Source of the DNA: Oscillospiraceae bacterium
Lineage (GTDB): Bacteria; Bacillota; Clostridia; Oscillospirales; CAG-272
NCBI GenBank assembly: GCA_015064725.1
Contig: SVRQ01000002.1
Coordinates: 1 to 64,000 of the forward strand
Reading direction: 5' to 3'
DNA: 64,000 bases
The notes under the pieces were generated by a model. The model had not been told where the DNA came from. It ran no database searches and was given only the letters and a program-made list of their open reading frames with translations. A program made the translations under genes and the position numbers. This document shows positions 4,691 through 16,687 of the stretch, one piece after another (within the stretch, counting starts at the first letter, position 1; the number at the start of each line of letters is the position of its first letter).

Positions 4691-6391
4691 TCATTCAACC
4701 GTTACGCCTATTCTTGCAAAGAGCGTCTTCCAGAAGAGCTGAGTATTCTGCCAATAATCGCTCTCGAGGTCGAGCTTGCCTTCGTACCAATTTTCGTTGT
4801 ACAAATGTCTTGTTTCGTAGAATTTTTGGTAGTCATACGAACCGTTCTCGTTCGTAAATCTTTCGAGATTGAGGAAAGGACCTTCGTACGTTCCGTAATG
4901 CTCGGAATACGGTCTTGTTTCGAGTAAATACTTATATTCATCGGATTCAAGATATTCGTTATATGCATCTTCCATATATATGGTTTCGAATACAAAGGCT
5001 GTGCTGAAAAGCTCTTTCACAAGCTCCTCGTCGGAAAGCACTCTTATTTCAACCGTACCGTCGGGCATATCGACTATGTCAACTCCGATACCGTTTGCGG
5101 CAAGAGCGGGACGGGCATCGCTTTGTACTTTCCAATTCTCCCCGTTGTGCTGGATGAGGAGAATGGTTTTTCCGTTGTATTTCCACGTCTGATCGCTTAA
5201 TTCGTGTATCTGACCTTGGCTCAGACCGTAAGGCGTGGAGGTATTGAAATAGCGGTCGGCGAGCTCTTCTTTTTCCTCGTCGTTGTATCCGTAAAGGCTC
5301 AGCTCCTCCCAACCGAGGAATTGATCCTTTATATCCTGCTCGGAAAGTACGTTTGCTTCTTCCGTTGCATTGTTGGAAGCGGGAACAACGGCGGCGTAAA
5401 CCACGGAGGAGATAAGCGTGAGCGCAAGCACCGTGGCGATGGCGAACGCGGTCAATTTTTTGCTTTTTTGAGTTAATATATTGTCAAGTCGTTTTTTCAT
5501 TTGGACTTTACCTCCTTTAAAAGTATTAAATATGAAGCTTTTGTTTACGGAGGCGGTCGTAACAAGCAAGCGGCAATAGCGCTTTCTTTCCTCAAGATCG
5601 CCTCCGCTTAAAAATTCTTCGTCGCAGGCTTGCTCCAAAAGATTTCCCATAGCGCGGATAAATACGTGCATTATCGGGTTAAACCAATAAAGAGAGAAGA
5701 GAAGTGCCAAGAACGCTTTTGCAAAATTATCTTTTCTTTTGCAGTGCGTAAGCTCGTGCCCGAGAATGTAGGCGGCATCCTCTTTTGTTATCTTATCCGA
5801 AATGACGATAGTCTTTTGGCAAAAGCCGAACGTAAGGGAAGAGCCGACGGCATAGTATGGGCAAACGAGAAGGCGAGGGGCTTTTTTCACGCAGAGCTTT
5901 TTGCAAAGCTTGCTATATTCGCTCGCTTCTTCCTCTTTTGGTGCGCGTCCGCACCTCTGCAATACCTTTGCCGCTCTGCAGTAGCGGAAAAGCGTGCAGG
6001 AAAGAGCAAGAAAAAAGCCGATGATATAGAGTGCAAAAATTACTGCTTCTGCGGGAAATGCGTGCTCGTTTCCGTTTGGTGCGGATGCTTGCGGCATCTG
6101 CTCTCGCTCCGCCGGAACGGCTTGATCTTCGTCCGCCGGAATGTCGAAAACGTAGGGCGGGGAAAGCGGCACGTCCGTTTCCGCTTCATAGCCGAGAGCA
6201 GTAAGCGCACTTTCGGGTATCTCCACGCGGAAAAGCGGTATTTTTATCGGCAGGATAAAGCCGATAACGAGCAGCCAGCCTATAAAATACCTGCCCACGG
6301 CGCATATCTTGCTTTGCAGCGCGCTGTTTGCAAGCAGGAAAACGAGTGCTGCCGCACTTGCAAGAGCTATATGCGTTATGACGGTATGCAT
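4691..6391 (-). CDS. BlaR1/MecR1-type M56 peptidase sensor with a non-penicillin-binding extracellular domain
   Basis: HELTHCKRKDN zinc protease motif in a TM-rich N-terminal half; TM then unfamiliar C-terminal domain; downstream of a BlaI-like gene. Confidence 0.85.
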   Translation of the reverse strand: MHTVITHIALASAAALVFLLANSALQSKICAVGRYFIGWLLVIGFILPIKIPLFRVEIPESALTALGYEAETDVPLSPPYVFDIPADEDQAVPAEREQMPQASAPNGNEHAFPAEAVIFALYIIGFFLALSCTLFRYCRAAKVLQRCGRAPKEEEASEYSKLCKKLCVKKAPRLLVCPYYAVGSSLTFGFCQKTIVISDKITKEDAAYILGHELTHCKRKDNFAKAFLALLFSLYWFNPIMHVFIRAMGNLLEQACDEEFLSGGDLEERKRYCRLLVTTASVNKSFIFNTFKGGKVQMKKRLDNILTQKSKKLTAFAIATVLALTLISSVVYAAVVPASNNATEEANVLSEQDIKDQFLGWEELSLYGYNDEEKEELADRYFNTSTPYGLSQGQIHELSDQTWKYNGKTILLIQHNGENWKVQSDARPALAANGIGVDIVDMPDGTVEIRVLSDEELVKELFSTAFVFETIYMEDAYNEYLESDEYKYLLETRPYSEHYGTYEGPFLNLERFTNENGSYDYQKFYETRHLYNENWYEGKLDLESDYWQNTQLFWKTLFARIGVTVE

Positions 6392-6395
6392 AAGC

Positions 6396-6782
6396 TCACC
6401 CTTTCCTTTCCGTTTTTTTGTCTATCCATTCAAGAAGCTCTTTGGAGTCTTCCTCGGAAAGACCTTTGCCATCGTAAAATGCGTTGATAAGGCCCATAAA
6501 AGAGCCGCCGTAAAGCTTGTTTACGATCTTTTTTGCCTCGGAGGAGTGGTACGCATCCTCTGCGACCTCCGCTTTCCAAAGGCGCTCTTTTCCTTTCTTC
6601 ACGGAAGAAAGGAAGCCCTTTTCCGTAAGGCGCGAAAGCATTGTAAGAACCGTCGGCGCTTTCTTGTCCGTTTGCATTTTTGAAAGTATCTCCGTCGTGG
6701 GTACAAATTCCTTGCCGCATTTCCATACGGCGTCCATAACCTCAAATTCCGCATCCGGAAGGCTTATAAGTTCTTTTTTCAT
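6396..6782 (-). CDS. BlaI/MecI/CopY family repressor
   Basis: DAEFEVMDAVWKCGKEFVPTTEILSKMQTDKKAPTVLTMLSRLTEKGFLSSVKKGKERLW wHTH. Confidence 0.9.
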   Translation of the reverse strand: MKKELISLPDAEFEVMDAVWKCGKEFVPTTEILSKMQTDKKAPTVLTMLSRLTEKGFLSSVKKGKERLWKAEVAEDAYHSSEAKKIVNKLYGGSFMGLINAFYDGKGLSEEDSKELLEWIDKKTERKG

Positions 6783-6827
6783 ATGCATCGCTCCTATCGC
6801 ATTTTGTTTTTCTCTTCACTTATATTT

Positions 6828-6837
6828 TACACTTGTA
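6828..6837. promoter_or_regulatory. BlaI-type operator half-site dyad TACACTTGTA
   Basis: TACA-N2-TGTA dyad directly upstream of the BlaI-like gene. Confidence 0.65.
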
Positions 6838-6862
6838 GAAAATAAAAGTCAAGCACATTTTT

Positions 6863-6872
6863 TACAAATGTA
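6863..6872. promoter_or_regulatory. Second BlaI-type operator TACAAATGTA
   Basis: TACA-N2-TGTA dyad, 35 bp from the first. Confidence 0.65.
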
Positions 6873-6997
6873 GAAAAACAGCCGTTTGCATAAACGGTGC
6901 TTGGATGTTTTGTGTATTTCCCACAGAGCTTTTCGGAAGAACGCATTGGAGCTTTAGAATAAAACTGAAAAATATTGCATATTTTTTGTGAAAATTA

Positions 6998-7026
6998 TTG
7001 ACATATAAATATCAAGTGTGTATAAT
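6998..7026 (+). promoter_or_regulatory. Perfect-consensus sigma-A promoter TTGACA-17-TATAAT
   Basis: TTGACA at 6998-7003, 17-nt spacer, TATAAT at 7021-7026. Confidence 0.85.
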
Positions 7027-7072
7027 TAAACAAAAAGCGGGCAAAAAAGCCGCATAAAGAAAGGGCAATATA

Positions 7073-7126
7073 ATGAAAACTATGTATTATTATTCTATGC
7101 GATTTTATTATACTGCATCTTTGTGA
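7073..7126 (+). CDS. Putative Tyr/Phe attenuator leader peptide MKTMYYYSMRFYYTASL
   Basis: 17-aa ORF with five Tyr and one Phe, ~47 nt after the -10 box and before the aromatic amino acid operon. Confidence 0.75.
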   Translation: MKTMYYYSMRFYYTASL

Positions 7127-7174
7127 GGGCAGTCTGTTTCCGCATAGTTTTTTAGAGCAAAAGACGATATGTGC

Positions 7175-7258
7175 CGCAGAATGCCTCGCGCTTTTTGCGG
7201 TACTCTATTTTTTCGCGGAGTGCCACGCAGAAAGGGCATTCTGCGATTTTTATTTTTA
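7175..7258 (+). promoter_or_regulatory. Transcription attenuator structure of the aromatic operon
   Basis: CGCAGAA(7226-7232)-agggca-TTCTGCG(7239-7245)-ATTTTTATTTTT; competing arm CGCAGAATGCC(7175-7185) complementary to GGCATTCTGCG(7235-7245). Confidence 0.65.
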
Positions 7259-7290
7259 CGGCGTTCGCCGCGTATTTGGGAGAATATATT

Positions 7291-8478
7291 ATGATTTCTG
7301 AAAAGATGCTTGCGCTTGGCAAAAAAAGCTCTGCCATCCGCGCGATATTTGAATACGGCAAAAAAAGAAAGGCGGAGATCGGGGAAGAAAACGTTTTTGA
7401 TTTTAGCCTCGGCAACCCCAGCGTCTGCCCCCCGCCAGTTGTAAACGAAACGATAAAAAAGCTTATTGAAGAGGCAGACCCCATAGATCTTCACGGTTAC
7501 ACCTCCGCCCCCGGCGATATGGACACAAGAAGCGCTATCGGCGCATACCTTGCAAGGACCTACGGCACGGATGACACAGCGGAAAATATCTATATGACCG
7601 TTGGTGCGGCGGCTTCTCTTACCATCACTCTCGGTGCGCTTGTTTGCAAAGGGGACGAGGTCATCGTGCTTGCACCGTATTTTCCCGAATACCGCGTTTT
7701 TGCCGAGCACGCCGGTGCAAAACTTTGCGAAGTACCTTGCCGCGCAGGAGATTTTCAGCTTGATACGCAGGCGCTTTCGGCGGCGGTGAACGAGCATACC
7801 AAAGCGATAATCGTAAACTCTCCGAACAATCCCACGGGAGTCGTACTTTCGCAGGAGAGCGTAAAGTCCCTTGCACAGATACTTTCGGAAAAAGAAAAAG
7901 AGTACGGACATCCTATATATATAATATCGGACGAGCCGTACCGCGAGCTCGTTTACGGCGGAGAGGCTCCGTATATACCTAATTATTATAACAACACGGT
8001 TTCCTGCTATTCGTTCAGCAAGTCCCTCTCTCTGCCCGGGGAGAGAATAGGATATATCTGCGTATCCAAAAGGTGCGTGGATTGGCGAGAGCTCTTCTTC
8101 GCTGTCTGCGGTGCGGGACGCGCACTCGGATTTGTCTGTGCGCCCAGCCTTATGCAAAAGGTCGTTCCCGCGTGCCTTGGCAAGACGGCGGATACTTCCA
8201 TATACGATACGAACAGAAAGCTTCTTTACAATGAGCTTACGCGCTACGGTTACGAATGTGTTTACCCGGACGGGGCTTTTTATATGTTCGTAAAAGCTTT
8301 TGAGGATGATGCGGGCGCATTTTGCGAAAAAGCTAAGGAGCACGAGCTTTTGCTCGTCCCCTCCGATTCCTTCGGCGTTGCAGGCTACGTCAGGATCTCA
8401 TATTGCGTTAAAACAGAGCAGATAGAACGCGCGCTTCCTGCGTTTTGCGCCCTTGCAAAAGATTACGGAAAGATTTGA
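7291..8478 (+). CDS. Class I/II PLP-dependent aminotransferase (probable aromatic/aspartate aminotransferase)
   Basis: NSPNNPTGVV, SDEPYRELVY and SFSKSLSLPGERIGY motifs; first gene of the aromatic operon. Confidence 0.9.
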   Translation: MISEKMLALGKKSSAIRAIFEYGKKRKAEIGEENVFDFSLGNPSVCPPPVVNETIKKLIEEADPIDLHGYTSAPGDMDTRSAIGAYLARTYGTDDTAENIYMTVGAAASLTITLGALVCKGDEVIVLAPYFPEYRVFAEHAGAKLCEVPCRAGDFQLDTQALSAAVNEHTKAIIVNSPNNPTGVVLSQESVKSLAQILSEKEKEYGHPIYIISDEPYRELVYGGEAPYIPNYYNNTVSCYSFSKSLSLPGERIGYICVSKRCVDWRELFFAVCGAGRALGFVCAPSLMQKVVPACLGKTADTSIYDTNRKLLYNELTRYGYECVYPDGAFYMFVKAFEDDAGAFCEKAKEHELLLVPSDSFGVAGYVRISYCVKTEQIERALPAFCALAKDYGKI

Positions 8479-8491
8479 ACGGAGAATAACA

Positions 8492-9574
8492 ATGGATAAA
8501 CTTGAAAAAGCAAGAATAGAGATAAACGAAGCGGACAAGGGTATCGCAGAGCTTTTCTGCAAGAGAATGAATGCGGTGCGCACCGTTGCGGAATATAAGA
8601 TGGAGCGCGGTCTTCCCATACTCGATGCCGCACGCGAGGAGGCTGTCGTTATAAAAAACAGCGCGCTTGTGGAGGACGAGGAGCTTCGCGCTTACTACGT
8701 AAACTTTATAAAATATACGATGGAGCTTTCCAGAAACTTTCAGCATAAGCTCATAAGTGGCGCAAGGATAGCGTACAGCGGTATTCCCGGGGCATTTGCC
8801 TCCCTTGCCGCGCGTAAGCTTTTCCCGGACGGAGAGCACGTTGCATACCCGAACTTCGAGGCGGCTTACAACGCCGTTGTGAACGGCGAGTGCGACAGCG
8901 TGGTGCTTCCCATCGAAAACAGCTATGCCGGCGAGGTTGGTCAGGTTATGGACCTTATATTCTTCGGCTCGCTTTACATAAATAACGTAATGAGTCTTGC
9001 GGTGACGCAGAACCTTCTCGGTGTTCCGGGCGCAAGACTTGAGGATATAAAGCAGGCGGTGAGCCATCCGCAGGCAATAGAGCAGTCCTCCGTTTATTTG
9101 CATGAGCATAATATCACGCCCGTGCAGTTTTCCAATACGGCGCTTGCGGCGAAGCACGTTGCAGAGCTTGGGGATAAGAGCGTTGCCGCTATCGCGGGCG
9201 ACGAGGCGGCAAAGATATACGGGCTTAACGTGCTTGCCCACGGCATTAACGAAAGCGGTATGAATACGACGCGCTTTGCAACTCTTTCCCGTGTGGAAAA
9301 CAAGCGCGAGGGCAGACCCGATGATAACTTTATGCTCGTTTTCACGGTTAAAAACGAGGCGGGCGCTCTTGCCAAGGCGATGGATATTATCGGTAAGTAC
9401 GGATACAATATGCGCGGACTTCACTCCCGCCCGATGAAATCGCTTATGTGGCAGTATTACTTCTATCTTGAAGCAGAAGGAAACGTAAGGACGGAAAACG
9501 GCAAAAAGATGATGGAGGAGCTGAAAGCGGTTTGCGATAAGCTCAAGCTCGTCGGCTCTTACGCGGTGAAGTGA
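8492..9574 (+). CDS. pheA: Bifunctional chorismate mutase/prephenate dehydratase
   Basis: N-terminal chorismate mutase helix; PDT domain (RIAYSGIPGAFASLAARKLFP...NTTRFATLS) and C-terminal ACT domain (GALAKAMDIIGKYGYNMRGLHSRP). Confidence 0.93.
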   Translation: MDKLEKARIEINEADKGIAELFCKRMNAVRTVAEYKMERGLPILDAAREEAVVIKNSALVEDEELRAYYVNFIKYTMELSRNFQHKLISGARIAYSGIPGAFASLAARKLFPDGEHVAYPNFEAAYNAVVNGECDSVVLPIENSYAGEVGQVMDLIFFGSLYINNVMSLAVTQNLLGVPGARLEDIKQAVSHPQAIEQSSVYLHEHNITPVQFSNTALAAKHVAELGDKSVAAIAGDEAAKIYGLNVLAHGINESGMNTTRFATLSRVENKREGRPDDNFMLVFTVKNEAGALAKAMDIIGKYGYNMRGLHSRPMKSLMWQYYFYLEAEGNVRTENGKKMMEELKAVCDKLKLVGSYAVK

Positions 9575-9621
9575 TAGAAAAAGCCTTACCCAATGGGGGA
9601 GGCTTACGGAAAGGATTTTTT

Positions 9622-10641
9622 ATGACAATACACGTTGAGCTCGGTGTATCGAGCTATGATATAGAACTCTCCCGCGGTGCGCTCCGCCGCGCAGGCGAGC
9701 TTATCCCTATGCAGAGGAAGGTACTTGTCGTAACGGACAGCGGCGTTCCCGCGGAATATGCGGACACGGTAGCCTCCTTTGCAAAGACCGCCGTCAAGGC
9801 GGTCATCCCCGAGGGTGAGGCAAGCAAAAATTTCGATTCCTTAGAGATGCTCCTTGCAAAAATGCTTGATGCAGGCTTTACGCGCAAGGATGCGGTAATT
9901 GCCGTCGGCGGCGGTGTTGTCGGTGACCTTGCCGGATTTGCCGCATCGATGTATATGCGCGGAATAGATTTTTATAATATCCCCACAACGCTTCTCTCCC
10001 AGGTGGACTCCTCCATCGGCGGAAAGACGGCGGTGGATTTTCACGGATACAAAAACGTTATCGGCGCGTTCTATCAGCCCAAAAAGGTCATTATCGACCC
10101 GAACGTGCTTAAAACTCTCGAAAAACGTCAAGTCGCCGCAGGTATGGCGGAGGCAATAAAAATGTCCGCAACGTCGGATGCCAAAATGTTTGCCTCTCTC
10201 GAGAGCGCGGACGATATTTATGCGGATATAGACACGGTTATAGAAAAAGCGCTTCGTATTAAAAAATACGTTGTGGAATGCGATGAAAAGGAAGCGGGAC
10301 TTCGCAAGATACTCAATTTCGGCCATACCGTGGGTCACGGAATAGAAACGCAGCAGGAAGGCGCTCTTTACCACGGAGAATGTGTGGCACTTGGTATGCT
10401 TCCCATGTGCTCCGAGGGCGTGAGAGAAAGACTTATCCCCGTGCTCAAAAAGGCGGGGCTTTCCACAGAGCTTTCTCTTTCGGAGGATGAGCTTAAAAAT
10501 GTTATGACGGCGGTCTCTCACGATAAAAAGAGTGCTGCCGACGGTATTGATGCTGTACTTGTAAACGAGATAGGAAGCTTTGAAATAAAGAAGCTTACAC
10601 TTTCCGAAATAGAAGAAAAAACAAAAAAGATCTTTGCATAA
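9622..10641 (+). CDS. aroB: 3-dehydroquinate synthase
   Basis: GGGVVGDLAGFAASMYMRGIDFYNIPTTLLSQVDSSIGGKTAVD. Confidence 0.97.
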   Translation: MTIHVELGVSSYDIELSRGALRRAGELIPMQRKVLVVTDSGVPAEYADTVASFAKTAVKAVIPEGEASKNFDSLEMLLAKMLDAGFTRKDAVIAVGGGVVGDLAGFAASMYMRGIDFYNIPTTLLSQVDSSIGGKTAVDFHGYKNVIGAFYQPKKVIIDPNVLKTLEKRQVAAGMAEAIKMSATSDAKMFASLESADDIYADIDTVIEKALRIKKYVVECDEKEAGLRKILNFGHTVGHGIETQQEGALYHGECVALGMLPMCSEGVRERLIPVLKKAGLSTELSLSEDELKNVMTAVSHDKKSAADGIDAVLVNEIGSFEIKKLTLSEIEEKTKKIFA

Positions 10642-10652
10642 GGAGAAATAAT

Positions 10653-11744
10653 ATGAAAAATACCTTCGGAACCTCTGTAAGCCTTACCGTTTTCGGAGAG
10701 AGCCACGGTCCGTTCATAGGCGCTGTGCTTGACGGACTTGCCCCCGGTATCGAGGTAAACGAGGAGGATATAAAACACGCACTAACGCTTCGCCGCCCTG
10801 CGGGAAGGATCTCCACGTCAAGACAGGAGAAGGATGAGTACGTTATAGCAAGCGGAGTTTTCGAGGGGAAGACCACGGGAACTCCCATTGCGATAATCAT
10901 TCCCAATGCGGATACAAGAAGCAAGGATTATAAGAAAACTTACGGTCTTGCGCGCCCGGGTCACGCGGATTTTGCGGCTTTTTGCAAATATCACGGCTTT
11001 GAGGACTATCGCGGAGGCGGCCATTTTTCGGGTAGAGTAACCTCTGCACTCGTTGCGGCGGGCGCTGTTGCGCGCGCCGCCCTTGCAAAAAAGGAGATAT
11101 ACCTTGGAACGCACATAAAAGAGCTTGCGGGCGTGCCGGACAGAGCCTTTGAAGACCTTAAAGCGGATATAGACGAGCTTTACGGCAAGGTTTTCCCCGT
11201 GCTTTCCTCCGAAGCGGAGGAAAAAATGCGCGCCGAGATAGAAAAGGCGGCGGCAGAGGGCGACAGCGTCGGCGCACTTCTTGAAACAGTCGTTATAGGT
11301 ATGCCTGCCGGCGTGGGAGAGCCTTATTTTGACTCTGTTGAAAGCGTTATCTCCCATATGATGTTCTCCATACCCGGTGTCAAAGGCGTGCTCTTTGGCG
11401 CGGGAACGGATTTTGCAAAGATGCGTGGAAGCGAAGCCAACGATGCTTTCCGTATGGACGGAAACGGAAACGTATATACGAAAACGAACAACAACGGCGG
11501 CGTGAACGGCGGCATTACGAACGGAAGCCCCCTCCGCTTTACAACGGTCATAAAGCCCACGCCGTCTATTTATAAAAAACAGGAAACGATAGATTTTATA
11601 AACGGCGAAGAAAAAGATATTTCAATAGAAGGCCGCCACGACCCCTGCATTGCCCACAGAGCAAGGATCGTTGCAGACAGCTTGACGGCGATAGCGCTTT
11701 GCGATATACTTTCCGGCAGATACGGCACGGACTTTTTTGCGTGA
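10653..11744 (+). CDS. aroC: Chorismate synthase
   Basis: FGESHGPFIGAVLDGLAPGIEV, RPGHADFAAFCKY, GRVTSALVAAGAVARAAL, HDPCIAHRARIV. Confidence 0.97.
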   Translation: MKNTFGTSVSLTVFGESHGPFIGAVLDGLAPGIEVNEEDIKHALTLRRPAGRISTSRQEKDEYVIASGVFEGKTTGTPIAIIIPNADTRSKDYKKTYGLARPGHADFAAFCKYHGFEDYRGGGHFSGRVTSALVAAGAVARAALAKKEIYLGTHIKELAGVPDRAFEDLKADIDELYGKVFPVLSSEAEEKMRAEIEKAAAEGDSVGALLETVVIGMPAGVGEPYFDSVESVISHMMFSIPGVKGVLFGAGTDFAKMRGSEANDAFRMDGNGNVYTKTNNNGGVNGGITNGSPLRFTTVIKPTPSIYKKQETIDFINGEEKDISIEGRHDPCIAHRARIVADSLTAIALCDILSGRYGTDFFA

Positions 11745-11760
11745 GCCAAAGGAGAAGATT

Positions 11761-13014
11761 ATGAGATACGGTTTACTCGGAGAAAAGCTGCCGCACAGCT
11801 TTTCCAAGGAGATACACGAAAAGCTCGGCAGATATAAATACGAGCTTATAGAAGTTGCAAAAGAGGATTTTCCTTCTTTTGCGGAGAAAAGAGATTTTAC
11901 GGCTATAAATGTCACCATCCCTTATAAGCGCGATATTATCCCTTACCTCGAAACGATAAGCGAGCAGGCGGAGAAGATAGGTGCTGTAAACGTAGCGATA
12001 AACAAGGATGGCAAGCTCCACGGCTATAACACGGACTTTGCAGGTCTTCGCGGACTTATACTTCGCGCGGGCTTTGACCTTAAAGGTAAGACGGTGCTCA
12101 TCCTCGGATATGGCGGCACGAGCAGAACGGCAAACGCCGTTTGCGCGGATCTCGGTGCAAAATGCGTGAAATTTGTAAAAAGAAGTGCATCAGACGGCAT
12201 CATCTCCTATGCGGACGCGGCGCGCGATTATGCGGATGCCGAATATATCATAAACACATCCCCTGCGGGAATGTATCCGAGTACGGATGCAAGCCCGTTT
12301 GACGGAAGCGGTGTGAGCCTTGCGGATTTTCCGCGCCTTTGCGGTGTGGTTGATGTAATATACAATCCGCTTCGCACGAAGCTCGTTACAGAGGCACAGC
12401 TTCGCGGTGTTCCCGCCGTGGGCGGCCTTTATATGCTTGTTGCACAGGCAACGGCGGCGGCAGAGCTTTTTACGGGAGAGAGCGTTGCGGACGAGGCAAC
12501 GGAAGGAATATTCAAGGATCTTCTTCTTGCAAAGCAGAACTTGGTGCTTACCGGTATGCCGGGAAGCGGCAAAAGCACCGTCGGCGCGCTCCTTGCACAG
12601 AAGCTTTGCAGAAAGTTTTATGATACGGATGAAGAATTTACGAAAAAATACGGCACACCTGCCGATTATATAAGGGAGAACGGCGAGAGCGCCTTCCGCG
12701 ATGCGGAAAGCGCCGTTATTGCAGAGCTTTGTGCGGGCGTTACGGGCGCGGTCATCTCTACGGGCGGCGGCGCGATACTTCGCAGAGAGAATATATATGC
12801 GCTTCGCGCAAACGGCAGGATATATTTTATAGATAGAGATATAAGCACGATAGTTCCCACAAGCGACCGTCCTCTTTCCTCCGATATGGATATGCTCCGC
12901 AAGAGATATGAGGAAAGATATCCCATCTACACGGGCACGTGCGACGTTCACGTTATAAATGACGGCACGGCACAGGAAACGGCGCAAAAAATCACGGAGG
13001 ATTTTACAAAATGA
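11761..13014 (+). CDS. Shikimate dehydrogenase - shikimate kinase fusion
   Basis: AroE motifs (LPHSFSKEIHE, INVTIPYKRDI, GYNTDFAG, YNPLRTKLV) followed in frame by AroK (LTGMPGSGKSTVGALLA, DTDEEF, ISTGGGAILR). Confidence 0.95.
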   Translation: MRYGLLGEKLPHSFSKEIHEKLGRYKYELIEVAKEDFPSFAEKRDFTAINVTIPYKRDIIPYLETISEQAEKIGAVNVAINKDGKLHGYNTDFAGLRGLILRAGFDLKGKTVLILGYGGTSRTANAVCADLGAKCVKFVKRSASDGIISYADAARDYADAEYIINTSPAGMYPSTDASPFDGSGVSLADFPRLCGVVDVIYNPLRTKLVTEAQLRGVPAVGGLYMLVAQATAAAELFTGESVADEATEGIFKDLLLAKQNLVLTGMPGSGKSTVGALLAQKLCRKFYDTDEEFTKKYGTPADYIRENGESAFRDAESAVIAELCAGVTGAVISTGGGAILRRENIYALRANGRIYFIDRDISTIVPTSDRPLSSDMDMLRKRYEERYPIYTGTCDVHVINDGTAQETAQKITEDFTK

Positions 13015-13454
13015 AGATACTTGTTATAAACGGACCAAATCTTAATATGCTCGGCATACGAGAGCCCGATATTTACGGAAAGAGCACTTATGCGGACCTT
13101 TGCAAAATGATAGAGGAACATTGCGCCGAAAAAGGCGTTGAGGTCGAGATATACCAATCCAACTACGAGGGCGACCTTGTAACGAAGATACAGAAGGCGC
13201 TCGGCGTTTTCGACGGCATAGTTATCAATCCTGCGGCTTACACGCATACGAGCGTTGCGCTTCTCGATGCGCTCAAGGCGGTTGCCATCCGTGCGGTGGA
13301 GGTGCATATCTCCGACGTTTCCAAGCGCGAGGGCTTCAGAAGCATCAGCTTCGTGCGCGAATACTGCGAAAAGACCATCGCGGGACACGGATTTGCGGGC
13401 TACCTTGAGGCGATAGACGCGCTTCTTGCCCCTCCTGCGGAAATGAGAGCGTAA
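13011..13454 (+). CDS. aroQ: Type II 3-dehydroquinate dehydratase
   Basis: INGPNLNMLGIREPDIYG, YQSNYEGDLV, INPAAYTHTSVAL. Confidence 0.97.
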   Translation: MKILVINGPNLNMLGIREPDIYGKSTYADLCKMIEEHCAEKGVEVEIYQSNYEGDLVTKIQKALGVFDGIVINPAAYTHTSVALLDALKAVAIRAVEVHISDVSKREGFRSISFVREYCEKTIAGHGFAGYLEAIDALLAPPAEMRA

Positions 13455-13455
13455 T

Positions 13456-14676
13456 ATGGACGTTATTATAGAAAAAAGCAAGGCGAACGGAACTGTCGAT
13501 GCGCCCCCCTCCAAAAGCTTTGCACACAGGCTTATAATCTGTGCCGCCCTTGCGGGAAAAAGCGAGGTGCGCGGTGTTGAGGGAAGCGAGGATATTCTTG
13601 CTACTCTTGACTGTGCCGCCGCTTGCTTTGGTGCGAAATACGAAAAAAACGGGGAAAACTACGTATTCTCCGAAAGCGACGTTCGCGGCAAGGCGCAGGG
13701 CGCGCTTATGTGCCGCGAAAGCGGAAGCACGATGCGCTTTTTTATCCCACTCTGTCTTGTAAAAAATACAGAGTGCGTGCTTTACGGCAGCGAAAAGCTC
13801 TTGACCCGTCCCCTTACGGTATATGAGGACATCTGCCGAGAGCAGGGAATAACGTTTTCCCACGAGGGAGACCGTATCCGCGTTTGCGGTCCTCTTAAAT
13901 CGGGCAAGTTTACCGTTCCCGGCAACATTTCAAGTCAGTTTATAAGCGGACTTATGTTTGCGCTCCCGTTGCTTTCGGGCGACAGCGAGATATGCATTCT
14001 CCCTCCGCTTGACAGCAAGCCGTATATCGATATAACGATGGAAGCCCTTGAAAGATTCGGCGTGAGTGCCGTTTGGAAGGATGAGCTTACCATTTATATA
14101 AAAGGAAACCAAAAATACACTCCCGCGTGCGAGCGTGTGGAGGGGGATTTTTCAAATGCCGCGTTTCTTTCCGCGCTTGATGTTCTCGGTGGGGACGTTA
14201 CCGTGGAAAACCTTAACGAAAACAGCACACAGGGCGATAAAGCCTATATAGAGCAGTTCCGCGCTCTCTGCGAAGGCTCGCCCACGATAAATATTTCGGA
14301 TTGTCCGGATCTTGCACCCATCCTTATGAGTGTGGCGGCGGTCAAAAACGGTGTGACCCTCACGGGAACGGCGCGTCTTAAAATAAAAGAGAGCGACAGA
14401 GGCGCGGTTATGGCACGGGAGCTTGCCAAATTCGGAGTTCCCGTTACCGTGAACGAGGATACCATCACGGTGGAGGGCGGACACTTCCGCGCACCGAACG
14501 AGCCGCTTGACGGCCACAACGATCACAGGGTCGTTATGTCTATGGCGGTGCTGTGTACGCTTACGGGCGGAAAAATACTTGGGGCGCAGGCGGTGAAAAA
14601 GAGCTACCCCACGTTCTTTGAAACAATAAAGAAGCTTGGAATAGAGGTTTTTGAAAGTGGAAATTCAGAAGGATAA
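13456..14676 (+). CDS. aroA: 3-phosphoshikimate 1-carboxyvinyltransferase (EPSP synthase)
   Basis: PPSKSFAHRLIICAALA, CRESGSTMRFFIPL, DHRVVMSMAVL. Confidence 0.96.
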   Translation: MDVIIEKSKANGTVDAPPSKSFAHRLIICAALAGKSEVRGVEGSEDILATLDCAAACFGAKYEKNGENYVFSESDVRGKAQGALMCRESGSTMRFFIPLCLVKNTECVLYGSEKLLTRPLTVYEDICREQGITFSHEGDRIRVCGPLKSGKFTVPGNISSQFISGLMFALPLLSGDSEICILPPLDSKPYIDITMEALERFGVSAVWKDELTIYIKGNQKYTPACERVEGDFSNAAFLSALDVLGGDVTVENLNENSTQGDKAYIEQFRALCEGSPTINISDCPDLAPILMSVAAVKNGVTLTGTARLKIKESDRGAVMARELAKFGVPVTVNEDTITVEGGHFRAPNEPLDGHNDHRVVMSMAVLCTLTGGKILGAQAVKKSYPTFFETIKKLGIEVFESGNSEG

Positions 14677-15514
14677 AAAAATACTCATCGTAGGTCTTGG
14701 ACTTCTCGGCGGCAGCTACGCGCAATCGCTCACACGTCAGGGCTACGAGGTATATGCGATAACAAGAAAGCAGAGCACGATAGACTATGCGCTCGAACAC
14801 GGTATGATAAAAGCCGGAACAACACAGATCGATGAAAAGATGATCGCCGATGCCGATATCGCCGTTTTTGCGCTCTATCCCCATATTTTTATCGAGTGGA
14901 TAGAGCAGAACGGAAAGTATTTCAAAAAAGGCGCGATAATCACGGACGTTACGGGTGTTAAATGCGGGATCGTGGATAAGATACAGGCGCTTCTCCCCGA
15001 GGGAGTGGAGTTCATCGGCGCACACCCGATGGCGGGTAAAGAGGTTTACGGTATTGAAAACAGCAACGAGGAAATGTTCAAGGGTGCAAACTATATCGTT
15101 ACGCCTACGGAGAAGAACAGCCGCGAGGCTGTTGAGATCTGCAAGGAGCTTGGAAGAATGCTTGGCTTTGGCAACGTAACGGAGCTTACCCCCCAGAAGC
15201 ACGACAGAATGATAGGATTTCTTTCCCAGCTTACGCACTGTATCGCCGTTGCGCTTATGACCTGCAACGATGACGCAAACCTTTGCAAATATACGGGCGA
15301 CTCCTTCCGCGATCTTACAAGGATAGCACGCATCAACGAGGATATGTGGAGCGAGCTCTTTATGCTCAACAAGGATATACTTATTTCCGAAATGAAGGCG
15401 TTCGGCGGAGAGCTTGAAAAGCTTCGCCGCGCTATGGAAACGGACGACGTGGAAACTATGAAGAAGATGATGCGCGTTTCCACAGAGCGCCGTGCAATGT
15501 TTGACAAAAAGTGA
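14651..15514 (+). CDS. tyrA: Prephenate dehydrogenase
   Basis: ILIVGLGLLGGSYAQSL Rossmann motif, FIGAHPMAGKEVYGIENS; TTG 14651 or GTG 14657 start. Confidence 0.9.
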   Translation: MKVEIQKDKKILIVGLGLLGGSYAQSLTRQGYEVYAITRKQSTIDYALEHGMIKAGTTQIDEKMIADADIAVFALYPHIFIEWIEQNGKYFKKGAIITDVTGVKCGIVDKIQALLPEGVEFIGAHPMAGKEVYGIENSNEEMFKGANYIVTPTEKNSREAVEICKELGRMLGFGNVTELTPQKHDRMIGFLSQLTHCIAVALMTCNDDANLCKYTGDSFRDLTRIARINEDMWSELFMLNKDILISEMKAFGGELEKLRRAMETDDVETMKKMMRVSTERRAMFDKK

Positions 15515-15655
15515 TATTACAGTGTTTATAATATTTAACCGAGGTTTATGCTTAAAACGCGGCGGTTTTTGCTTCTTTTTTGTAACTTTTTTCTTTCAAA
15601 AAGAAAAAAGTTAACTGAAAAACAAAATTTTAAAAATCTCAGGAGAATTTTTATT

Positions 15656-16687
15656 ATGAATATGAATTTTAAGAAAAAGCTTCCCGTTCCTATGGAAGTT
15701 AAGGAAATGTACCCTCTTTCCCTTGAGCTTGCCGAAAAGAAGGCTGCGCGCGACAAGGCCATCAAGGACGTTTTTGCCGGTAAGAGCGATAAGATGCTTC
15801 TCGTTATCGGACCCTGCTCCGCAGATAACGAGGATTCCGTAATGGACTACATATGCAGACTTAAAAACGTACAGGACAAGGTTGCGGATAAGCTTATCAT
15901 CATTCCCCGTATCTACACGGGTAAGCCCAGAACCATTGGCGACGGCTACAAGGGTATGGTACACCAGCCCAACCCCAACGAAGCTCCCGATGCTTTCAAG
16001 GGCATCGTTGCTATACGTCAGCTTCATATGAGAGCACTTGCGGAAACGGGTCTTTCCACGGCGGACGAAATGCTCTACCCCGAAAACCACCGTTACCTTT
16101 CCGACCTTCTTTCCTACGTTGCGATCGGCGCGCGCAGTGTTGAAGACCAGCACCACAGACTTACGGCAAGCGGTCTTGATATCCCCGTTGGTATGAAGAA
16201 CCCCACAAGCGGCGATATTTCCGTTATGATGAACTCTATTACGGCGGGTCAGCACGCGCACCAGTTTATCTACCGCGGCTGGGAGGTTGAAAGCCAGGGC
16301 AACGAATACGTTCACGCTATCCTTCGCGGATATGTGAACAAGCACGGTCAGTCCCTGCCCAACTACCATTACGAGGACCTTATCAACCTTTATGAGGAAT
16401 ATGCGAAGAAGCCCGATCTCAAGAATCCTGCCGTTATCGTGGACACGAACCACGCAAACTCCGGCAAGAAGCACCTGGAGCAGGTTCGTATCGCGAAAGA
16501 AGTTCTTCACTCTTGCAGATACAACAAGGATATTCGCTCCATCGTCAAGGGCTTTATGATCGAAAGCTATATCGAGGACGGCGCACAGAAGATAGGCGAA
16601 GGCGTTTACGGTAAGTCTATCACAGATCCGTGCCTCGGATGGGAAAAGACGGAGAAGCTCATCCTCGACATCGCGGACGTGCTTTAA
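15656..16687 (+). CDS. Class I 3-deoxy-7-phosphoheptulonate synthase (DAHP synthase)
   Basis: LLVIGPCSADNEDSVMDY, IPRIYTGKPRTIGDGYKGMVHQPNP, IVDTNHANSGKKHLEQ; RBS CAGGAGAA before MNMNF. Confidence 0.95.
   Translation: MNMNFKKKLPVPMEVKEMYPLSLELAEKKAARDKAIKDVFAGKSDKMLLVIGPCSADNEDSVMDYICRLKNVQDKVADKLIIIPRIYTGKPRTIGDGYKGMVHQPNPNEAPDAFKGIVAIRQLHMRALAETGLSTADEMLYPENHRYLSDLLSYVAIGARSVEDQHHRLTASGLDIPVGMKNPTSGDISVMMNSITAGQHAHQFIYRGWEVESQGNEYVHAILRGYVNKHGQSLPNYHYEDLINLYEEYAKKPDLKNPAVIVDTNHANSGKKHLEQVRIAKEVLHSCRYNKDIRSIVKGFMIESYIEDGAQKIGEGVYGKSITDPCLGWEKTEKLILDIADVL

Follow-up and report, generated by a model that had tools for sequence, protein, structure and literature searches.

The window analysed here, a 64,000-nt stretch of the genome (1.6 Mb, 70% complete) of an uncultured gut bacterium of the Oscillospiraceae, carries a nine-gene shikimate/Phe/Tyr operon (7291–16684), and the DNA between its promoter and its first gene raises the question of how transcription of the operon is switched. 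A sequence-only reading of this region had proposed an attenuator in which a ribosome on a short leader peptide senses Tyr (and Phe) charging on behalf of the whole operon. That proposal is supported by the conservation of the leader, the compensated complementarity of its RNA segments and folding calculations, and we consider it highly probable (about 0.88) that a ribosome-mediated transcription attenuator responsive to Tyr- and Phe-tRNA charging governs the entire shikimate-to-Phe/Tyr operon.

The locus and its leader ORF

NCBIfam identified the genes of the operon, in order, as those for a PLP aminotransferase, a chorismate mutase–prephenate dehydratase, aroB, aroC, an aroE–aroK fusion, aroQ, aroA, tyrA and DAHP synthase, confirming the gene order given earlier from the sequence; the genes 3′ of the leader make the amino acids that it is presumed to sense. 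The perfect TTGACA-17-TATAAT promoter and the 17-codon Tyr/Phe ORF that had been described are likewise present (Table 1). The ORF is short and promoter-proximal, has a Shine–Dalgarno sequence and is enriched in codons for the end products. Only 4 of the 281 ATG-started ORFs of 10–30 codons in the window are as rich in Tyr and Phe as the leader (itself one of the four), and among these only the leader ORF has a Shine–Dalgarno sequence; the binomial probability of at least 5 Tyr in 16 codons is 3.6 × 10−4.

Table 1. Coordinates of the leader features and the operon in the window
Feature	Position	Strand	Details
Sigma-70-type promoter	6998–7026	+	−35 TTGACA at 6998–7003, 17-bp spacer, −10 TATAAT at 7021–7026; 12/12 match to consensus
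Shine–Dalgarno AAAGGG of leader ORF	7060–7065	+	GAAAGG/GGAGG at the corresponding place in relatives
Leader ORF MKTMYYYSMRFYYTASL, 17 codons	7073–7126	+	Includes TGA (7124–7126); conserved in six genus species
First Tyr run, codons 5–7	7085–7093	+	Genus-specific, weaker predicted control position; stall gives antiterminator in 4/6 species
Rare Arg codon CGA	7100–7102	+	Directly 5′ of control run; CGA in 20/20 Arg-bearing leaders
Predicted control codons Phe-Tyr-Tyr (TTT TAT TAT), codons 11–13	7103–7111	+	Codon scan, 6/6 species; conserved across families
Segment B (GGGCAGTCTG)	7127–7136	+	Folding: under the ribosome at the stop codon, would pair with D when free
Segment D (GTGCCGCAGAATGCC)	7171–7185	+	Folding: 5′ arm of first hairpin D:E, partner of B
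Segment E	7191–7206	+	Folding: 3′ arm of D:E or, in the antiterminator, partner of F
U-rich tail 3′ of D:E	7204–7213	+	Candidate first terminator T1
Segment F	7214–7234	+	5′ arm of main terminator (7214–7224) and partner of E
Segment G (7235–7245) and U-tract	7235–7257	+	3′ arm of main terminator T2
PLP-dependent (probably aromatic) aminotransferase, first structural gene	7291–8475	+	NF005305, E = 1e-161
pheA (CM-PDT), aroB, aroC, aroE-aroK, aroQ, aroA, tyrA, DAHP synthase	8498–16684	+	

Two further features of the window were recorded. Divergent genes upstream of the operon (4694–6788, − strand) encode a BlaI-type repressor (PF03965) and a BlaR1-type M56 peptidase (PF05569), and two TACA-N4-TGTA sites (6828–6839 and 6863–6874) look like a candidate operator of these genes. 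The sole Rfam match within the window is a Gut-1 RNA (RF01706; 59806–59881, + strand, 71.8 bits), a family without known function.

Conservation of the leader in the genus and the order

Short AT-rich ORFs readily encode Tyr and Phe, and a simple alternative is that the ORF arose by chance in AT-rich DNA, the leader being unregulated or ending in a constitutive terminator. The six genomes of the genus (the source genome of the window included) speak against this: in 6/6, a promoter, a Shine–Dalgarno sequence, a Tyr/Phe ORF and a terminator precede the orthologous operon, the first gene of which is 79–93% identical to that of the window in the relatives. Their leader peptides are MKTMYYYSMRFYYTASL, MKMMYYYSMRFYYTASL, MNTMFYFAMRFYYYAFSFVRQAV, MNTMFYYAMRFYYYAVTFVGQAV, MNTMFYYAMRFYYYAVSFVGQAV and MKKMYYSYFRFYYYAASL.

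To look beyond the genus, we used protein similarity to gather first-gene orthologues from the order's other families, and the DNA upstream of each was searched for Tyr/Phe ORFs whatever their codon choice. Tyr/Phe leaders, always before the aminotransferase, turned up in families f10, f17, f19 and f22, as well as in another genus of the window's own family (L013) and in L082, a 'Clostridia bacterium' from goat caecum (RGIG1702); examples from beyond the genus are MKQFLYSTRFYYFTVADCLCSEK, MILTARFYYYMGTDRRNSVEELVRG, MFKIFNRFYYGKTDFLSTAGCVR, MLLNTAYRFYYYTEKANCLFTCKTAAV, MAGFYFYYFMNADCRNAD and MLQKFYYYYYYFNKDCLFSSKEQHA. Wherever longer stretches could be read, the gene order downstream matches that of the window, and in L073, L074 and L076 the operon order is identical. 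A TTGACA-type promoter lies 57–76 nt 5′ of the start codon in 24 of the 25 leaders printed, which together contain 91 Tyr, 64 Phe and 0 Trp codons out of 541. The Tyr/Phe run kept across families is the second one, whereas the first, YYY, is confined to the genus.

Many orthologous operons of the order had no such Tyr/Phe leader in the upstream-region scan, and a scan of 292 genomes of the class with the pattern CGATTTTATTA gave no convincing leader outside the order. Three in-frame-looking hits outside it (L276–L278) lie inside or antisense to unrelated genes; within the order, plain pattern hits were mostly chance and were retained only if in frame and before the operon. Because the class-wide scan yielded no convincing case elsewhere, we see the Tyr/Phe leader as an order-level feature, patchily kept. 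Judged by sequence comparison, the fact that six species and several families keep it, in every case ahead of the same operon, is the decisive evidence that it is more than chance, and pattern hits of the kind that chance produces are what the scan returned outside the order. Relatives had been named in the sequence-only reading as the place to look for the Tyr-rich ORF, and there it is found. We therefore regard a chance ORF as extremely improbable.

In one genome without the leader, G030 (locus L010), a promoter of this operon is succeeded by a palindrome, GGTTAACACTGTTAACC, about 25–80 bases 5′ of the aminotransferase gene, which suggests a repressor in place of the leader.

The content of the leaders can be set beside that of the genomes. 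Neither any genus genome (two of them 97–98% complete) nor most leader-bearing relatives yielded trpE (PF04715); most relatives that lack the leader likewise gave no trpE, and it was found in only 4 of the 48 order genomes tested, with the shikimate pathway present. From this gene content, widespread Trp auxotrophy in the order is probable. The absence of trpE fits, though weakly given its spread through leaderless relatives, chorismate going chiefly to Phe and Tyr, and also fits the lack of Trp codons in the leaders; as an explanation of where the leader occurs, its loss is uninformative, being order-wide.

The leader is strongly structured and T-boxes are common in the genus genomes, both of which could point to an RNA-only or protein-bound attenuator (a riboswitch, a T-box or a TRAP-like system) in which the ORF is incidental. 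However, the T-box covariance model (RF00230) gave no match to 6950–7300 even at an E value of 10, so that the T-box which had been named earlier as evidence against peptide attenuation was not found in the region, and no Rfam family, known amino acid leaders included, matched the leader at gathering score, weaker searches returning hits at chance level. Moreover, families that differ in RNA sequence have the Shine–Dalgarno sequence, the frame and the Tyr/Phe content in common, and an attenuator with an incidental ORF is very unlikely. T-boxes occur elsewhere in every genus genome, G000 included, and peptide attenuation would therefore coexist with them.

A codon-dependent switch predicted by folding

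A predicted intrinsic terminator lies between the ORF and the first gene, as judged by sequence and folding. It is the hairpin F:G, an 11-bp stem in the window (7214–7224/7235–7245) that is kept in 6/6 species, with energies of −12.6 to −18.4 kcal/mol and a U-tract with 10–11 T of 12. The CGCAGAA-AGGGCA-TTCTGCG hairpin of the sequence-only reading is present with ATTTTTATTTTT, but it is not the conserved terminator: the 5′ arm of this 7-bp hairpin (7226–7245) is gone in L003–L007. The pairing of CGCAGAATGCC (7175–7185) with GGCATTCTGCG (7235–7245) noted in the same reading is exact, and it is the minimum-energy structure at full length; as the antiterminator it was rejected, in that the long hairpin still adjoins the U-tract and would itself be predicted to terminate.

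Further upstream, hairpin D:E (−15.9 to −21.3 kcal/mol across the six species) contains segment D, identical in 6/6 species, and is followed by a tail with 7–10 T of 12, again in 6/6. The ORFs differ in length among the six species, yet segment B adjoins or overlaps the stop codon in each. A candidate first hairpin, CTATGCG (7096–7102) with CGCATAG (7142–7148), is lost in L007 and was not relied on.

Transcripts were folded up to a 3′ end just before G, because the decision falls as G emerges, with the A-site placed at a chosen codon and the sequence 5′ of the ribosome's front edge removed. The predicted antiterminator combines B:D (7127–7136/7175–7185) with E:F (7191–7206/~7217–7234). Placing the A-site on the codons of the F-Y-Y(-Y) run gives E:F 9–16 expected base pairs versus 0–4 for D:E, together with B:D, in 6/6 species; with the ribosome at the stop codon, D:E is favoured in 5/6, the exception being L007. 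In L006 the antiterminator is on at the four codons of the F-Y-Y-Y run and at no others, and in L007 it begins exactly at the Phe of the second run. A stall at the first run (codons 5–7) gives the antiterminator in only 4/6 species, and for this reason the folding model identifies Phe11-Tyr12-Tyr13, not the first YYY, as the control codons. By calculation, then, the switch is codon-dependent: an antiterminator set by ribosome position excludes the terminator in silico, with an ambiguous stop-codon state in L007. A simple shuffle statistic on F-arm accessibility was not significant, and the switch was assessed instead by base-pair states and the codon scan. In the full-length equilibrium fold, a stalled ribosome does not leave G unpaired, and the model therefore needs co-transcriptional folding, on which attenuators generally depend.

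We infer the following course for leader translation, stalling and termination. On shortage of Tyr or Phe, the leading ribosome would stall at Phe11-Tyr12-Tyr13 and leave B, at the stop codon, free to pair with D; B:D would free E to pair with F, G would be unpaired while RNA polymerase crosses the U-tract, and transcription would continue. With an ample supply of both amino acids, the ribosome would reach the stop codon and cover B, so that D:E and F:G form and transcription stops.

A shorter version of the switch is predicted outside the genus. In 21 leaders, the segment just 3′ of the Tyr/Phe run complements the 5′ arm of the terminator, and the paired sequences differ between families (GCGGAC:GTCCGC, CGGATCGC:GCGGTCCG, GGACTTTCTG:CAGAAAGCCC and GTCAGACTT:AGGTCTGAC), changes that are compensatory. 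True partners form duplexes of −16.6 kcal/mol on average, versus −12.2 kcal/mol for partners from different families, and 0 of 20,000 permuted pairings reached the observed energy sum, a test inflated by relatedness; complementarity in excess of permuted partners also counts against a chance ORF. A ribosome stalled early in the run would leave the segment free to pair with the terminator 5′ arm as an antiterminator. For termination in f10, simple masking at the stop fails because the ORF arm lies ~30 nt 5′ of the stop codon, beyond the cover of a ribosome there; such a ribosome may instead open an internal hairpin spanning the stop codon.

The codon directly before the run is a second conserved element. 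Where Arg stands there, it is encoded by CGA in 20/20 leaders (the ortholog scan was codon-blind), and CGA makes up 2% of the Arg codons of genes in the window and 4% of those in the first genes at leader-bearing loci. A study of the Salmonella his leader found slower translation at CGA than at CGC or CGU, accompanied by de-attenuation (PMC4046918). A pause at CGA just before the control codons is plausible here, but the codon is absent from five leaders.

Conservation of the R-F-Y-Y word and its codons across families, beyond the needs of a simple Tyr run, would also be expected if a free small molecule, and not uncharged tRNA, caused the nascent peptide to arrest the ribosome, as in TnaC, an arrest peptide responding to tryptophan. 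Yet the Arg is missing in five leaders (L192, L193, L198, L222 and L223), F and Y interchange, and different families have unrelated residues ahead of the run, whereas arrest peptides usually conserve a larger part of the chain; nascent-chain arrest appears improbable.

Returning to attenuation through tRNA charging, we read the genus leader as tandem terminators because D:E, like F:G, has a U-rich tail on its 3′ side in 6/6 species. In the resulting relay, B:D would open terminator 1 (D:E, in its presumed role) and the released E would open terminator 2 (F:G). The relatives have three segments and one terminator, and the genus leader, apparently by way of an additional hairpin, has five segments; with an odd chain in either case, the sense of the switch would be preserved. 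Tentatively, and at somewhat less than even odds, we suggest a relay attenuator derived from a three-segment ancestor by addition of a second terminator hairpin, with CGA as a built-in pause that tunes ribosome/polymerase timing.

Comparison with known attenuators

In the attenuators of E. coli pheA, pheST and trp, a short ORF with many codons for the regulated amino acid is combined with alternative hairpins and an intrinsic terminator, and the present leader resembles them in having such an ORF, alternative hairpins and a terminator before biosynthetic genes. It differs in that Tyr dominates, with Phe, and in that one leader serves the common shikimate pathway and both branches. In E. coli trp, four segments are used and the stalled ribosome masks segment 1; here the control codons precede the first pairing segment, which the stalled ribosome leaves free, and the segments number three in the relatives and five in the genus.

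The switch is thus of a known kind, and for an aromatic operon in a Clostridia-type order it is apparently undescribed; the open-access literature, which set the scope of the search, yielded no report of this Tyr/Phe leader. A Tyr/Phe leader-peptide attenuator would here span at least five families and control the common aromatic pathway as one unit. Its three- to five-segment forms offer a natural series for following attenuator evolution, and the conserved rare CGA beside the control codons is a clue to ribosome–polymerase timing.

Two groups of described leaders come closest. The uORFC-13-1 motif before aroF in Acholeplasma is a candidate uORF attenuator that includes a terminator and one or more Phe codons (PMC8632094), and is alike in that it would attenuate an aromatic pathway gene; compared by description only, it differs in belonging to another lineage, in preceding aroF alone and in involving Phe only, with no described Tyr run. 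Histidine leader peptides occur in Firmicutes before hisS/hisZ in bacilli (PMC2965389) and before the his operons of the B. cereus group, Peptostreptococcaceae and Erysipelotrichales (PMC9413887). These sense histidine and belong to other lineages, unlike the Tyr/Phe leader, and share with it leader-peptide attenuation in Gram-positive bacteria that also use T-boxes.
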